Virus record (IMG/VR): IMGVR_UViG_3300036399_000015
Coordinates: 1 to 21,094 of that record
Source: a virus
Strand: one strand, 5' to 3'
DNA: 21,094 nt
How positions within the stretch are numbered: the stretch's first letter is position 1; each line of letters begins with the position of its first letter. Position numbers and translations under genes: made by a program. Positions 1 to 6,508 of the stretch are shown here, piece by piece. Below the pieces are notes generated by a model, which saw only the letters and a program-made list of their open reading frames with translations, was not told the DNA's origin and made no database searches.

Positions 1-1118
1 TGTATTTGACATCCATCAGACACATTCCTATTCCTAAGGATGGTGATGCTCAAGATGCATTAGACATCTGGGAAATGGAGGCAAGGAACAGAGGGGTTAT
101 GTTTATTGACGATTCTCCTGAGAACCTGAAGAGTCCTTCTAGCTTCAACCAATTTAGAGATATTGACCTCACGCGTACACAGGAGATACAATCTCGTTAT
201 ACGCTAGCACAACAGCTTAAGAATGAGTGTTGGGAGCTTGTGGGTATGAGTAGACAGCGTATGGGATCTGTGTCAGCTAGTGAGAGTGCTACAGGTGTAA
301 ACACAGCTGTGTCTCAGTCTTATTCTCAAACAGAACCATGGTTTGTTGCACATGAATATGTAATGGGTCAGCTCTATCAAGCAATCATTGATGCTGCTCT
401 ATACGTAGAATCTAAGAAGCCTCAGTCTACACTCAGCTACATCACTAGCGAGGGTGAATCAGCATTTGTATCTGTAAATGGTACAGACTTAAGATTCCGT
501 GACTTGAAGGTATTCTTGACAAATCGTCCTGAAGATACACAAATGTTTAACGAGCTTCGTCAATTGGCTCAGCCTTTGATGCAGAATGGTGGAAGCTTGT
601 ACGATGTAATTGAGCTTTACAGCACTAAGTCTATGAGAGCTATGAAGAAAGTGTTCAAAGATCTGCGTGATAAACAGCAGGCCATGGAACAACAGAAGCT
701 CCAGATTCAGCAACAGCAAGTTGAGCAACAGGGTCAAATTGCCCAGGCTCAGCTTCAACAAGCTCAAGTACAGAAAGAACAAGATATTGCTAATGATAAT
801 TATCAGAATGAGCTTGATCGCATCAATAAGAAAGAGATTGCCCTGATTGCTGCTGAAGCAAAGAACATGGGTCCTCTATCTGACGTGGATAAAACTGGAA
901 CTCCTGACGTATTGGAAATCAGCAAGTTAAACGCAGAACAAGAAAGAACGACTAAAGACTATCAGGCAAAGATGGCTGACCTTAGTACCAAGAATAGACT
1001 AGCTGCTGAGAAGATTGCTCTTGAAAGAGAGAAGTTACAAGTGGATCGTGAGAATCAGAGAAACGACTTAGCAATCGCTAGAGAAAATGCTAAGGGACGC
1101 TCTAAAAAACCTGAATAA
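1..1118 (+). CDS. Portal protein, C-terminal part (5' end outside window)
   Basis: The reading frame is already open at base 3, so the gene enters from upstream; the TTG at base 6 is not a real start. The visible ~371 residues begin in the portal body. The conserved stretch around visible residues 75-115 (RQRMGSVSASESATGVNTAV, then a QTEP motif) is the portal signature I recall from crAss-like phages: an arginine/methionine-glycine turn, a Ser/Glu-rich helix and a region facing the DNA channel. From about residue 220 the protein becomes a long Gln/Glu/Lys-rich coiled coil running to the C-terminus, which fits the barrel or crown of a portal dodecamer. In the virion the portal would form the DNA entry and exit pore and dock the terminase and tail. 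Its stop overlaps the next start (TAATG), so the two are probably translationally coupled. Residues upstream of the window cannot be assessed. Confidence 0.82.
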   Translation, partial: YLTSIRHIPIPKDGDAQDALDIWEMEARNRGVMFIDDSPENLKSPSSFNQFRDIDLTRTQEIQSRYTLAQQLKNECWELVGMSRQRMGSVSASESATGVNTAVSQSYSQTEPWFVAHEYVMGQLYQAIIDAALYVESKKPQSTLSYITSEGESAFVSVNGTDLRFRDLKVFLTNRPEDTQMFNELRQLAQPLMQNGGSLYDVIELYSTKSMRAMKKVFKDLRDKQQAMEQQKLQIQQQQVEQQGQIAQAQLQQAQVQKEQDIANDNYQNELDRINKKEIALIAAEAKNMGPLSDVDKTGTPDVLEISKLNAEQERTTKDYQAKMADLSTKNRLAAEKIALEREKLQVDRENQRNDLAIARENAKGRSKKPE

Positions 1119-1648
1119 TGTTTGATAGGCTAATTGACTTAATAACTGGCTGGTTTGAACAGCTGCTTCCCTTCTTTATCGTTAGAGATTTTGAGGAAGC
1201 AGTTGTTCTACGCTTTGGTAAATTCCACAAGGTAGTTAAACCTGGCTTTCATTGGCGCATCCCATTTGTGGATGATCCTATGGAACAGCATGTTGTAGTT
1301 ACAACATTGAGCCTATCCCCACAGAGTCTTTACACTAAAGACAAACAGAACATTGTTGTGAAGGGGTTGATCAAATACAAAATAGCTGATATTCAGACAT
1401 TTATATTAGAAGTGTATGATGCTCAGGATGCTATATCAGATATGACACAATACATTATCAAGAACATCATCATGGACAAAACCTTAGATGAGTGTATAGA
1501 TACTGAGATTGATAACATCCTCACGAAGAAAGCTAGAGTGGAGGCAAGAAAGTGGGGTGTTGAAATCCAACAAGTTACACTCACTGACATAGCTCCAATG
1601 CGTTCATACAGGATAATAAACGACACGGTGATAAACAAACTTGATTAG
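1118..1648 (+). CDS. Short SPFH/band-7 (stomatin/prohibitin-like) protein
   Basis: This 176-aa protein opens with a hydrophobic/amphipathic segment (residues 1-22, including LLPFFIV) suited to membrane insertion. A canonical SPFH beginning follows: an EEAVVLRFGKF strand (26-36), a KPGFHWRIPFVD turn (41-52) and a YTKDKQNIVVKGLIKYKI strand pair (72-89). A helical part with KARVEARKWGVEIQQVTLTDI (138-158) is the usual end of the domain. The long C-terminal coiled coil of stomatins and HflK/HflC is missing, so this is a minimal one-domain form. Known SPFH proteins oligomerise on membranes and often regulate proteases such as FtsH. The start overlaps the portal stop by one base (TAATG), tying its expression to the portal. 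Why a phage head operon carries it is not known to me; membrane-linked assembly, protease control or superinfection exclusion are inferences. Confidence 0.8.
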   Translation: MFDRLIDLITGWFEQLLPFFIVRDFEEAVVLRFGKFHKVVKPGFHWRIPFVDDPMEQHVVVTTLSLSPQSLYTKDKQNIVVKGLIKYKIADIQTFILEVYDAQDAISDMTQYIIKNIIMDKTLDECIDTEIDNILTKKARVEARKWGVEIQQVTLTDIAPMRSYRIINDTVINKLD

Positions 1649-1769
1649 AGTAAATTAGATTAATGCTATATTATATACGAAAATGGTGTATATAGATGCA
1701 TAACTCTTTGCTATTCAACAATCTCTGACTATTTTTACAAGCGTATAAACCAATTTAAACAAACTACAT
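1649..1769 (+). other. Intergenic leader before the scaffold-like gene
   Basis: This 121-nt AT-rich gap separates the SPFH gene from the acidic coiled-coil gene. It holds an AT-only-core inverted repeat, TATATAC (1672-1678) against GTATATA (1688-1694) with a 9-nt loop, which could be a weak hairpin or an operator. A promoter-like pair lies downstream at 1707-1737. The last bases before the start (AAACTACAT then ATGG) match those before the gene at 4812, suggesting a shared A-rich leader in place of a Shine-Dalgarno sequence. Confidence 0.45.
1707..1737 (+). promoter_or_regulatory. Candidate Bacteroidota-type promoter (TTTG / TAnnTTT)
   Basis: TTTG at 1707-1710 is followed after 19 nt by TATTTTTA at 1730-1737. 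This resembles the Bacteroidota sigma-factor consensus of TTTG near -33 and TAnnTTTG near -7, except that the final G is A. Transcription would begin near 1743, giving a leader of about 25 nt before the ATG at 1770. In AT-rich DNA such matches also occur by chance. Confidence 0.4.
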
Positions 1770-3056
1770 ATGGCTGAAAACCTAGATACCCCGTCATTCG
1801 GTAACTTTAGTATTGAAAATACTATGGAGATGGGACCTGGAAGTACAGAACTTCTCAATGATCTTATGTCTCCTGAGACATCAACGGGTAACCCTGATGA
1901 TATTCAGAAGATCGTAAAAACTGCTGAACCTCCTACTCCAGATCCAAAACCCGATGTTCCAAAAGGAAAAGAAGTTGTTCCTAAAGCAGATGGTGAAGAA
2001 TTCACTGGTCAAGATCTCATATCAAGCTTCCTTGGTGATAACACTCAAGAAGATGAAGATGAAGAAGAGGCTGATCCTCAACCAGTTAAGAAGAAAGCTC
2101 CAACAACTGAAGCTAAACCTGCTGAAGAAAATAGTAACGAAGAAGGAGAGGGAGAAGGAGAAGAGCAAGTGAGTCAATTCACAGCTTTATCTCGTGACCT
2201 TTTCAAACTCGGTGTTTTCTCAAAGGATGATGATGATGAAGAAGATATAAGCATATCCACCCCTGAAGAGTTCTTAGAACGCTTCCAAAGTGAAAAGAAA
2301 AAGGGAGCTGTTGAGATGGTGCAAAACTTCATTGGTCAGTTTGGCGAGGATTATCAACAAGCGTTTGAGGCTGTATTTGTAAAAGGTGTTAACCCCAAAG
2401 ATTACTTTGGTGCATATAATAATGTGATGAGCTTCTCTGAAATGGATCTTTCACAAGAGAACAATCAAGTGTCAGTAATCAAACAAGCATTAGCTGACCA
2501 AGGTTTTGAGCCTGAAGACATTGATACAGAAGTTGAAAGACTCAAAAACTACGGTGATTTAGAGAGCGTAGCTACAAAACATCACAAAGTGTTGGTTAAG
2601 AAGGAAGCCCAGAAACTTGCCCAAATGGAGCAAAAGGCTGAGGTGGAACTCCAACAAAAACAAGCAATTAAAAACCAATACATCCAGAATGTTCAGGGAG
2701 TCCTTCAAGACAAACTGAAATCTAAGGAATTTGATGGAATCCCCATCAACCCCAAGTTGGCAAACGAACTACAAGACTTCCTGCTGGTAGATAAATACAA
2801 GACAGCAAGCGGTGAGACACTCACTGATTTCGACAAAACCATCTTGGAATTGAAGAGACCTGAGAACCATGCAACAAAGGTGAAAGTTGCCCTCCTGCTT
2901 AAAATCCTAGAAAAAGATCCTACACTATCTACCATCCAAAGAACAGGCGTTTCAAAGAAATCGAACGAACTGTTTGGGGAAGTAGCTAGACAAGTGACTA
3001 AAACTAAGGCATCTAGCAGTGGTCAACCAGCCAAACAAAATTCATGGTTCATTTAA
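1770..3056 (+). CDS. Acidic coiled-coil protein, probable capsid scaffold
   Basis: I recognise this 428-aa protein by position and composition, not by a catalytic motif. It sits between portal and major capsid genes, where tailed phages usually encode a scaffold or capsid-maturation protein. Residues 1-130 are disordered and rich in Pro and acidic residues, with runs such as EDEDEEEAD (94-102), EEGEGEGEE (124-132) and DDDDEED (153-159). A helical middle (165-265) leads to a Gln/Glu/Lys-rich coiled coil (275-315), then a compact C-terminal helical part with a basic tail (RTGVSKKSNE, 391-400) that could touch the inner capsid surface. I see no protease dyad, so a fused prohead protease is unlikely. 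The start follows an A-rich leader with a candidate promoter 33 nt upstream. An internal cargo or other minor head protein is the alternative. Confidence 0.6.
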   Translation: MAENLDTPSFGNFSIENTMEMGPGSTELLNDLMSPETSTGNPDDIQKIVKTAEPPTPDPKPDVPKGKEVVPKADGEEFTGQDLISSFLGDNTQEDEDEEEADPQPVKKKAPTTEAKPAEENSNEEGEGEGEEQVSQFTALSRDLFKLGVFSKDDDDEEDISISTPEEFLERFQSEKKKGAVEMVQNFIGQFGEDYQQAFEAVFVKGVNPKDYFGAYNNVMSFSEMDLSQENNQVSVIKQALADQGFEPEDIDTEVERLKNYGDLESVATKHHKVLVKKEAQKLAQMEQKAEVELQQKQAIKNQYIQNVQGVLQDKLKSKEFDGIPINPKLANELQDFLLVDKYKTASGETLTDFDKTILELKRPENHATKVKVALLLKILEKDPTLSTIQRTGVSKKSNELFGEVARQVTKTKASSSGQPAKQNSWFI

Positions 3057-3082: not shown

Positions 3083-4636
3083 ATGGCAATTCAAACAATC
3101 CCAGGTCTAACTGGCTTCACGTATGCTCGTGTCGCATCAATGGACAAGCGTGCTGTGGGTAAGCTAACTGACGCTAACCACCTGGAGAGCTTTCACTCAA
3201 CCGAGCCTGCTGATTACGATAAGAAAATCATCAGCCTCTACACACAGAGCTCTCTTTACAGCAATGACTTCCTTGACATGATCAACAAAAGCACGCCTTA
3301 TTACATTGATAATAATAGCGATGCTTGGAAATGGCAAGTAGCTGTTCCCTACAAATTCCCTAAGATTATCGACATCCCTGCTTCTACAGCTGAGCTGAGC
3401 AAGCCTGGTATCGATGGTCAAGAGTTCCAATTGGTAATTGACACAAACGAGTTCTCTAAGAACGCAATCGTTTCTGTTGGTACTCGTCAATATGGTCCTC
3501 GTTTTTACGTTATTAAGGATCCAGTTCCTTGGAACATGGGCTTCCTTTACAGCTTCACACTTGTTACAGACAATCCAACTGTAGACTTCGTAAGCCCAAC
3601 CTTCTTACAGGTAGGTATCGAACTTGAGTTGGTTGATGCTGCAATTGGTGAATTCGATCAAGACTTATTGGGTCTTCCTCGTTTGGGTGAGCAAATCACT
3701 ATGTTTGAATCTTTAGGTTCTGCATATGGTTTCGAGCACAAAATCACTGAGTGGGCTGATGACAAAATGATGCGTGACTCTGCAGGTCGTCCTTTGGACA
3801 TCCTTGTATATGCACCTCAGCGTCGTAACCAACTTCCTTTAACTCGTAACGATGTTAAATGGGAGCCATTTATTGAGTTCTGGATGCGTAAGTCTATGCT
3901 TGAATTAAAAGTTAAGCGTATGATTTGGTCTCGTCCTGGTACTGTTAAGACTAACGGTAGCAAGCAAGAACTTAAGCGTACATCTGCTGGTGTTTATCAC
4001 AGAATGCGTAACAACGGTAACTTAGTTCAATACAACCGTGGAGAATTCACTGCAAACTTGATTCGTTCTGTGTTTGGTGACTTATTCTACAGACGTGTGG
4101 ATGTTAAAGACCGTCGTGTTAAAATGTACACTAATGAGGCTGGATTTGACGTATTCCAACAAGCTTTGAAGACAGACGCTTTAAACAGTGGCTTGACTTT
4201 CATGGCTGATTCTGGAAACCGTTACATGCAGGGTGAAGGCCAGCATATCACTTACAACTTTGCATTCGATGCAATGGTTACTCGTGAAACTGGTCGTGTT
4301 GAGTTAATTCACTTGAAAGAACTTGACCTTCCTCAAACTAACCTTGAATTTGGTCAGAACAAGAAGAGCACACCTGTATTCATGGTGTTCGACGTATCTC
4401 CTATGTCTGATGGTTCATTGGTTAACAACATCCGTGAAGTACGTATGAAGGGTGCACCTTCTATGACTTGGGGTTATATCGATGGAACTCGCCACCACTT
4501 AGGCTTTGCTAAGTCTCAGGGTATGAGCTCTGCGAACAAATTCCCAGGATACGAAATCTGGATGAAAGACCGTTGTGATGTATTCATTGAAGACTTGTCT
4601 CGTACAGTTCTTATTGAAGAAATCCCACAATTCTAA
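3083..4636 (+). CDS. Major capsid protein
   Basis: This 517-aa protein follows the scaffold-like gene and matches the size and position of the HK97-fold major capsid protein of crAss-like phages. Supporting features are a soluble alpha/beta composition without membrane segments, no low-complexity sequence, a regular spread of aromatic and Arg residues, and a conserved-looking C-terminal half (MRMTNE-like strand around KMYTNEAGFDVF, and the end RTVLIEEIPQF). Arginine is coded almost entirely by CGT, with only two AGA codons that I found, unlike neighbouring genes that use AGA and AGG freely. This is the bias expected of the most highly expressed gene. The ATG is preceded by AAGGA (3071-3074 region), one of the few purine-rich ribosome-site-like stretches in the window. 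A structured RNA element follows its stop codon. The call rests on context plus remembered family resemblance. Confidence 0.82.
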   Translation: MAIQTIPGLTGFTYARVASMDKRAVGKLTDANHLESFHSTEPADYDKKIISLYTQSSLYSNDFLDMINKSTPYYIDNNSDAWKWQVAVPYKFPKIIDIPASTAELSKPGIDGQEFQLVIDTNEFSKNAIVSVGTRQYGPRFYVIKDPVPWNMGFLYSFTLVTDNPTVDFVSPTFLQVGIELELVDAAIGEFDQDLLGLPRLGEQITMFESLGSAYGFEHKITEWADDKMMRDSAGRPLDILVYAPQRRNQLPLTRNDVKWEPFIEFWMRKSMLELKVKRMIWSRPGTVKTNGSKQELKRTSAGVYHRMRNNGNLVQYNRGEFTANLIRSVFGDLFYRRVDVKDRRVKMYTNEAGFDVFQQALKTDALNSGLTFMADSGNRYMQGEGQHITYNFAFDAMVTRETGRVELIHLKELDLPQTNLEFGQNKKSTPVFMVFDVSPMSDGSLVNNIREVRMKGAPSMTWGYIDGTRHHLGFAKSQGMSSANKFPGYEIWMKDRCDVFIEDLSRTVLIEEIPQF

Positions 4637-4782
4637 GGAACCATTCTAAGGATTCTATCCTTAGACCCCTTATATCGAGAAGAGATTGCCCCCCACATCC
4701 CCGTGGGGGAGCTCTTCTCACTTACAGAGTGGTTGGACTGGGGTGTCTCCCAATCGCTATCCCTTCGGTGGGAATCACTCTG
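4632..4782 (+). ncRNA. Structured RNA element after the capsid gene (three hairpins)
   Basis: The gap between the capsid stop and the next gene is much more GC-rich than its surroundings and folds strongly. Hairpin A pairs CTAAGGA (4646-4652) with TCCTTAG (4658-4664). Hairpin B pairs GAGAAGAG (4677-4684) with CTCTTCTC (4712-4719) and, above an internal loop, CCCCCAC (4690-4696) with GTGGGGG (4703-4709). Element C closes with CAGAGTGGTT (4725-4734) against AATCACTCTG (4773-4782), one G-T pair, and encloses two small hairpins (TGGGG 4739-4743 with TCCCA 4748-4752; CCC 4761-4763 with GGG 4770-4772). No T-run follows any stem, so this is not a plain intrinsic terminator. Roles in mRNA processing, 3'-end protection of the capsid message, attenuation, or a small RNA are all possible. 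I do not recognise a known RNA family. Confidence 0.65.
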
Positions 4783-5780: not shown

Positions 5781-6508
5781 TACCAGTAGATAGTTTATTA
5801 TATAAGATAGACCAAAAACTAAATAAACTATCAACTAATATACACCAGCAAATTAACTTGGAAGATAAAATTCTGGCTCTCAATGAGGCCCAGATTAAGC
5901 TGATAAAACAAAAGGTTGATGGTTTTAGTGTGGTAAGTGGAATGGGACTCGATGCTTTTAAAAAGCGTTATGAGGACCTCCAAAGCTTGGTCATAACATA
6001 TAACCATCAACCTCTTGACCTCACTATTAAGAACGCTGAACTAAATCAATGGTTTGCTGATCTGCACCTGCTTGTTCCTAAGTACATGTTCTATTTAGAT
6101 GCATATGTACTGGCTGACAAAGGGGTGTGTAAGGATAGAAAGATCTGGATTAACAGAGACTTAGCTAAACATGGTGACCTTCAGTTCATTCTGAACAATA
6201 CACATTATAGGCCGTCTTTTGAATACCAAGAGACTTTCAACTTCCTCTCGACAGACGAAATATCCATCTTCACAGATGGTACATTCACTCCGAGTAAGAT
6301 ATATATGTCTTACATGCGCTATCCTGTATACATTAACAAACAAGGATATATCATGTTAGATGGCCAACCATCAGTTGACCAAGACTGCGAACTTGAACTC
6401 TATCTAGAGGATGAGTTGTTAGACTTAACAGTACAAAACCTAGCAATGTACACAGAGAACGCTGCTGCTGTTCAAAGTGCACAGTTCAGGATACAGACAA
6501 ACGAATAA
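5777..6508 (+). CDS. Probable head-tail connector/ring protein
   Basis: This 243-aa protein overlaps the preceding stop by four bases (ATGA). Residues 4-48 form a long amphipathic helix or helical pair. The middle (95-150) is mixed alpha/beta, and the C-terminal part reads as beta strands then helix: YMRYPVYINKQGYIML (179-194), an acidic ELELYLEDELLDLTVQ helix start (205-220) and ENAAAVQSAQ (227-236). A strand, a glycine-tyrosine turn, an acidic D/E helix and an AAVQS end are typical of gp6-like head-tail adaptors and, as I recall, of ring proteins in crAss-like tails. The protein at 16235 has nearly the same length and a similar C-terminal plan (a GYLYVN turn, then a VLELTSQKLL helix), suggesting a diverged paralogue. 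Function is inferred from shape and context. Confidence 0.5.
   Translation: MIPVDSLLYKIDQKLNKLSTNIHQQINLEDKILALNEAQIKLIKQKVDGFSVVSGMGLDAFKKRYEDLQSLVITYNHQPLDLTIKNAELNQWFADLHLLVPKYMFYLDAYVLADKGVCKDRKIWINRDLAKHGDLQFILNNTHYRPSFEYQETFNFLSTDEISIFTDGTFTPSKIYMSYMRYPVYINKQGYIMLDGQPSVDQDCELELYLEDELLDLTVQNLAMYTENAAAVQSAQFRIQTNE

Follow-up and report, generated by a model that had tools for sequence, protein, structure and literature searches.

The window, a 21-kb virus record analysed over its full length, carries an open reading frame at positions 1118–1648 (+ strand, ATG start, TAG stop) that encodes a 176-aa SPFH protein, which we refer to as SPFH-A. Its ATG overlaps the stop codon of the portal gene (TAATG), as an earlier note on this DNA had reported. 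The gene is followed by the presumed scaffold gene and then, as the second gene downstream, by the gene for the major capsid protein (MCP). The locus contains the following features:

3..1118, + strand: portal gene, C-terminal part (phrog_6547, E=9e-45; slot alignment)
1118..1648, + strand: mini-SPFH gene (SPFH-A), 176 aa (Band_7, stomatin and Foldseek matches; dN/dS)
1118..1171, + strand: N-terminal amphipathic helix, codons 1–18, probable membrane anchor (AF2 helix 2–16; hydrophobic moment)
1178..1612, + strand: SPFH1/SPFH2 domain, codons 21–165 (Pfam envelope; AF2 secondary structure)
1640..1710, + strand: conserved promoter-like element, TTGATTAGAGTAAA..TTAATGCTATATTAT..CTCTTTG (locus comparison; putative promoter function)
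1770..3056, + strand: presumed scaffold gene (lies between portal and MCP, as phi14:2 g092)
3083..4636, + strand: major capsid gene (Crass_capsid PF23898, E=1.6e-26)

The window comes from a crAss-like phage, probably a member of the Crassvirales. In addition to the MCP, its ring 1, ring 2 and muzzle proteins match crAss families (PF25702, E=8e-19; PF24228, E=7e-11; PF25731, E=4e-33), and the order of its structural genes is that of Cellulophaga phage phi14:2: portal, scaffold, MCP, and further on metallophosphatase, ring, IHF-like, tail and large virion protein. The terminase and polymerase genes lie outside the 21 kb. The presumed scaffold gene is so named from its position alone; it matches phrog_16294 (E=1e-6), a family of unknown function.

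Most genes of the window have no Shine-Dalgarno sequence and are preceded by A-rich leaders, a pattern that would suit a Bacteroidota host. By its MCP, the nearest named phage (25% identity) infects the cyanobacterium Leptolyngbya. The Leptolyngbya phage Lbo-JY46 (PP438436.1; L264, L384) has a crAss-type capsid gene annotated as hypothetical (PF23898, E=3e-34), and a 260-aa SPFH gene at 3866–4648, distant from its head genes. A contig binned in a Tissierellales MAG (L259, JACIXZ010000023.1) is a crAss-like phage fragment whose MCP is 88% identical to that of the window. A Tissierellales host, suggested by the MCP match in GTDB genomes, was set aside, as it depends on this one MAG contig and probably reflects a binning artefact.

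Fold and anatomy of the mini-SPFH protein

Three lines of evidence bear out the earlier identification of a minimal SPFH protein. The Pfam family Band_7 (PF01145) matches residues 21–165 of the 176 (E=4.7e-27) with 95.6 bits, above the curated cut-off of 23.6, which places SPFH-A in the SPFH/Band_7 superfamily. When a profile of 40 relatives was compared with solved structures, it matched human stomatin over residues 6–162 (E=1e-14). The AF2 model, of moderate confidence (mean pLDDT 71.7), retrieved stomatin, HflK, HflC, QmcA and prohibitin in Foldseek with E-values of 1e-11 to 1e-8 (stomatin, 1e-11); structure prediction, proposed in the earlier note as a check, thus recovered an SPFH fold. 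SPFH-A is not an HflK by the NCBIfam model, because its score against TIGR01933 (82 bits, E=4.5e-23) falls under the curated cut-off of 159.4; against the hflC model it scores 56 bits, with a cut-off of 134.4.

SPFH-A ends where the coiled coil starts in other SPFH proteins. Only about 11–16 residues remain after SPFH2, and the protein is indeed a one-domain form that lacks the C-terminal coiled coil. At the other end, AF2 predicts a helix spanning residues 2–16, and residues 2–18 are amphipathic, with a hydrophobic moment of 0.57 (p=0.0018 against shuffles). This helix is a probable membrane anchor; no transmembrane segment was seen in SPFH-A.

The protein is under strong purifying selection. 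SPFH-A relatives are encoded on 120 viral contigs, nearly all complete copies are exactly 176 aa long, and an alignment of 40 sequences contains 64 invariant columns, with the SPFH2 surface strongly conserved. The dN/dS ratio is 0.055–0.06, and likewise among pairs with dS <0.7. The number of relatives, the low dN/dS and the fixed length rule out a chance ORF or insertion. We also observed two damaged alleles. In L169 (1849–2361), a deletion of ~139 nt frameshifts the SPFH gene while the portal and scaffold genes are intact, which reflects either natural loss or an assembly error. In L375 (2927–3477), a deletion, possibly an assembly error, takes the end of the SPFH gene together with the conserved intergenic element.

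Contents, edges and turnover of the portal–scaffold slot

Junctions were compared in 147 distinct loci, collected through matches to the portal, MCP or SPFH protein. The space between portal and scaffold genes exists in four states: SPFH-A (103 loci), a second SPFH form, SPFH-B (6), a two-gene cassette (16), or empty (22). These proportions are biased, since SPFH itself served as the query for some of the loci; all four states also occur in the set seeded by the portal alone. The survey of related genomes that the earlier note had called for finds the gene in most relatives and speaks against a chance insertion. SPFH-B proteins are 172–175 aa long, ~25% identical to SPFH-A, and match Band_7 with E=4e-13. 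The cassette encodes a ~79-aa protein followed by an 84–89-aa protein with an invariant HEHFH (HExxH-type) motif. This second protein, found in place of the SPFH gene at 6336–6587 in L173 and in 15 other loci, had no family, structure or phage match, and its fold model was unusable (pLDDT 43). Further genes occur in or beside the slot: an endonuclease VII/HNH gene (PF02945, E=8e-26) adjoins the SPFH gene in L156 (3628–4050) and L346, a GIY-YIG-type gene lies ahead of the scaffold gene in the slot of L259 (1–660), and an extra 66-aa ORF is present in L068 and L266. The endonuclease genes may drive exchange of the slot.

On its left the slot is bounded by the portal stop codon, on its right by the promoter-like element (window 1640–1710). 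This element is nearly invariant, occurs once in 137 of 138 loci and in every slot state, contains an extended -10-like TGCTATATTAT, and is separated from the scaffold ATG by 99–113 nt (~109 nt). In SPFH-A loci, the element begins within the SPFH gene and shares bases with its final codons and stop codon, an overlap that may partly explain the conserved C-terminal KLD of the protein. An RNA hairpin was ruled out for the element, as it folds no better than shuffled sequences (z -0.1). The location between portal and scaffold genes given in the earlier note is correct, but the gene is not seamlessly embedded there: the 121-bp intergenic stretch that contains the element separates it from the scaffold gene, and SPFH-A is therefore better described as trailing the portal gene.

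On the + strand, no terminator-like site was detected near the SPFH-A gene, and the start of the gene shows no promoter-like site. A scan for sigma-70-type promoters gave two weak matches within the ORF, fewer than expected by chance. SPFH-A appears to depend on the portal transcript, and the earlier suggestion that it is expressed with the head genes, drawn from the overlap with the portal stop codon, is plausible.

On a tree of the portal C-terminus and scaffold from 138 loci (quick search), a minimum of 15 changes in slot state is needed; when only strongly supported branches are considered, SPFH-A still requires 12. Such counts do not distinguish gain from loss and could be too high if the flanks have recombined. 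Close pairs illustrate the turnover. L167, which has the SPFH gene, and L168, which has the cassette, share 93% over portal plus scaffold. The portals of the window type (L162) and L166 are 96% identical and their SPFH proteins 70%, while L080 and L070 have portals that are 73% identical and SPFH proteins that are 95% identical. Across loci, the correlation with portal identity is weaker for SPFH identity (rho 0.28) than for scaffold identity (rho 0.52). As judged from these sequence comparisons, SPFH alleles move between backbones, and the portal–scaffold junction serves this crAss-like lineage as a slot for exchangeable cargo.

In records of 114–117 kb with an empty or cassette slot, searched in whole, no SPFH gene was found anywhere. 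These records look near-complete, since gene-bearing relatives are of the same size, although IMG/VR does not class them as closed. Relocation of the gene in empty-slot genomes was ruled out for the records searched in whole, some of which may be incomplete. No Band_7 match was obtained for three of the named Crassvirales tested (phi14:2, crAss002 and DAC15), and crAss001 has a partial one under the cut-off. In phi14:2 the slot is empty, with the scaffold gene 107 bp after the portal gene.

The closest relatives outside the lineage are mini-SPFHs of 183–184 aa in other, unrelated large phages (L380, L390–L396), of which that of L380 is 38% identical to SPFH-A. Their genes are found apart from identified head genes, either within groups of small accessory genes or flanked by genes for endonuclease I and a primase. 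The primase of L380 has its closest counterparts in Microcystis phage Mel-JY01 and in Flavobacterium immuto phages. The podovirus ctgrD200 (L260, MW202733.1) has a 187-aa SPFH ORF (3983–4546) that starts 15 nt after the terminase gene, and no relatives of its protein were found in viral contigs. Its prohibitin-like gene is probably annotated too short. In a phylogenetic tree, the mini forms cluster separately from HflK, HflC, QmcA/YbbK and two full-length phage SPFHs; the support of 86/99 is not decisive, and long branches meet there. The best tree places SPFH-A closer to the large-phage form than to SPFH-B, but a single origin of SPFH-A and SPFH-B from one ancestral slot gene was not rejected (p-AU 0.10–0.12). 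The A1 profile scan of genome contigs, which reaches close relatives only, found no close cellular source.

Candidate functions and comparison with known systems

We consider SPFH-A to be, on balance, an accessory membrane-acting factor for host takeover or cell protection rather than a part of the virion or its assembly. Two observations suggest a host-directed role: the lineage can do without the gene, and its nearest relatives outside are placed apart from identified head genes. The proposed mechanism starts from a C-terminally stripped SPFH protein carried as exchangeable cargo. It would be translated from the end of the portal message, bind the inner face of the host cytoplasmic membrane through its amphipathic helix, and join or cap host SPFH rings of the HflK/C–FtsH or stomatin/QmcA type; membrane proteolysis or a microdomain-linked process would thereby be altered during infection. 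In full-length SPFH proteins the coiled coil builds cages, and the capping proposal draws on the cages known for HflK/C and stomatin. By this analogy, capping of host SPFH assemblies is a tentative assignment of the specific target, and the general class of accessory factor is the likelier of the two statements. Mimicry of HflKC, raised in the earlier note, is a possible role of SPFH-A. A broader formulation, that mini-SPFHs are a phage-specific family which, without the coiled coil, would cap or poison and so open or disarm host SPFH cages (HflK/C–FtsH, stomatin), with the junction as a dedicated exchange site for host-directed genes, is more doubtful still. Several observations weigh against these ideas. 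Since full-length phage SPFH genes exist, the missing coiled coil may have no functional meaning. In most of the lineage the gene lies at the portal stop codon, a placement that might tie it to late expression or assembly, and the ctgrD200 mini-SPFH also adjoins a head/packaging gene, the terminase.

The main rival, which sequence does not separate from the accessory host-directed role we favour, is superinfection exclusion, also raised in the earlier note, or anti-defence: the protein would alter the inner membrane so as to block injection by a second phage or a membrane-linked defence, leaving host SPFH rings untouched. High turnover of the slot and swapping of alleles suit genes engaged in competition or an arms race, and the predicted membrane-binding N-terminus would serve such a role. 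Yet no recognised defence or exclusion gene lies beside SPFH-A, and the SPFH2 surface is strongly conserved, which is more suggestive of a constant partner than of a protein evolving fast in an arms race; we regard this alternative as rather unlikely. Far less probable is the head-assembly role raised in the earlier note, in which portal and procapsid would be assembled at the membrane with the SPFH protein as anchor or organiser. The portal-stop overlap in most of the lineage and the probable membrane contact would agree with it, but many close relatives lack the gene while sharing the head genes, 22 of 147 loci and phi14:2 have an empty slot, unrelated genes fill it elsewhere, and the closest outside relatives are encoded apart from identified head genes. 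Slot turnover, SPFH-less relatives and this placement of the outside relatives therefore argue against an obligate head-assembly anchor, and we judge such a role very unlikely for the phages that carry the gene. Finally, SPFH-A might be a near-neutral passenger in a slot where mobile genes land, brought there by endonuclease genes such as those in or beside it in L156, L346 and L259, and the one broken allele (L169) would be in keeping with this. However, a dN/dS of ~0.06, the fixed length and the invariant residues mostly refute an unimportant passenger, which we consider highly improbable.

SPFH proteins govern membrane proteases and microdomains in all cells. Here, phages of a widespread crAss-like lineage exchange, as a cassette, a stripped form that selection holds at one length. 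With so small a protein one could ask how much of the SPFH fold suffices for binding membranes or host SPFH rings, and the portal–scaffold junction stands out as a site of exchange at which to look for further host-directed genes.

No demonstrated function for such a gene was found in the literature searched, in agreement with the earlier note, and we found no earlier report of SPFH genes in crAss-like phages in the open-access literature (subscription journals and most preprints lay outside the search). Published phage SPFH proteins include the full-length Kayvirus MbpS, encoded beside the lysis genes (PMC7150955), and HflK/C-like proteins in Pseudomonas phages (PMC4936722, PMC8540360), in each case as annotation or conjecture. 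For LeBron gp49, a Band-7-like protein of 298 aa, overexpression inhibited growth (PMC13148394).

SPFH-A shares the SPFH1 and SPFH2 sequence and fold with stomatin, HflK, HflC, QmcA and prohibitin (PF01145), as well as a hydrophobic or amphipathic N-terminus. Cellular SPFHs, however, are 250–420 aa long, whereas SPFH-A has 176 aa and lacks the coiled coil and C-terminal region. Full-length phage SPFHs (Kayvirus MbpS, the prohibitin/band 7 proteins of a Rhizobium phage and Skarpretter, phrog_200) are likewise phage-borne copies of the domain with unproven function. Unlike SPFH-A, those included in the tree are 283–284 aa long and fall with cellular proteins, and full-length phage SPFH genes adjoin lysis, replication or metabolism genes rather than occupying a portal–scaffold slot. 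The same stripped architecture as in SPFH-A is seen in the mini-SPFHs of 183–187 aa (L380/L390–L396 and ctgrD200, the latter ~25% identical to SPFH-A) and in A0A6J7WFI0 (173 aa), although the other carriers are different types of phage and their gene neighbourhoods differ. While SPFH-A may differ from phage ‘morons’ in that no promoter or terminator of its own was found adjacent to it, it resembles them as an optional gene among otherwise collinear relatives, placed between conserved late genes and exchanged among related phages.
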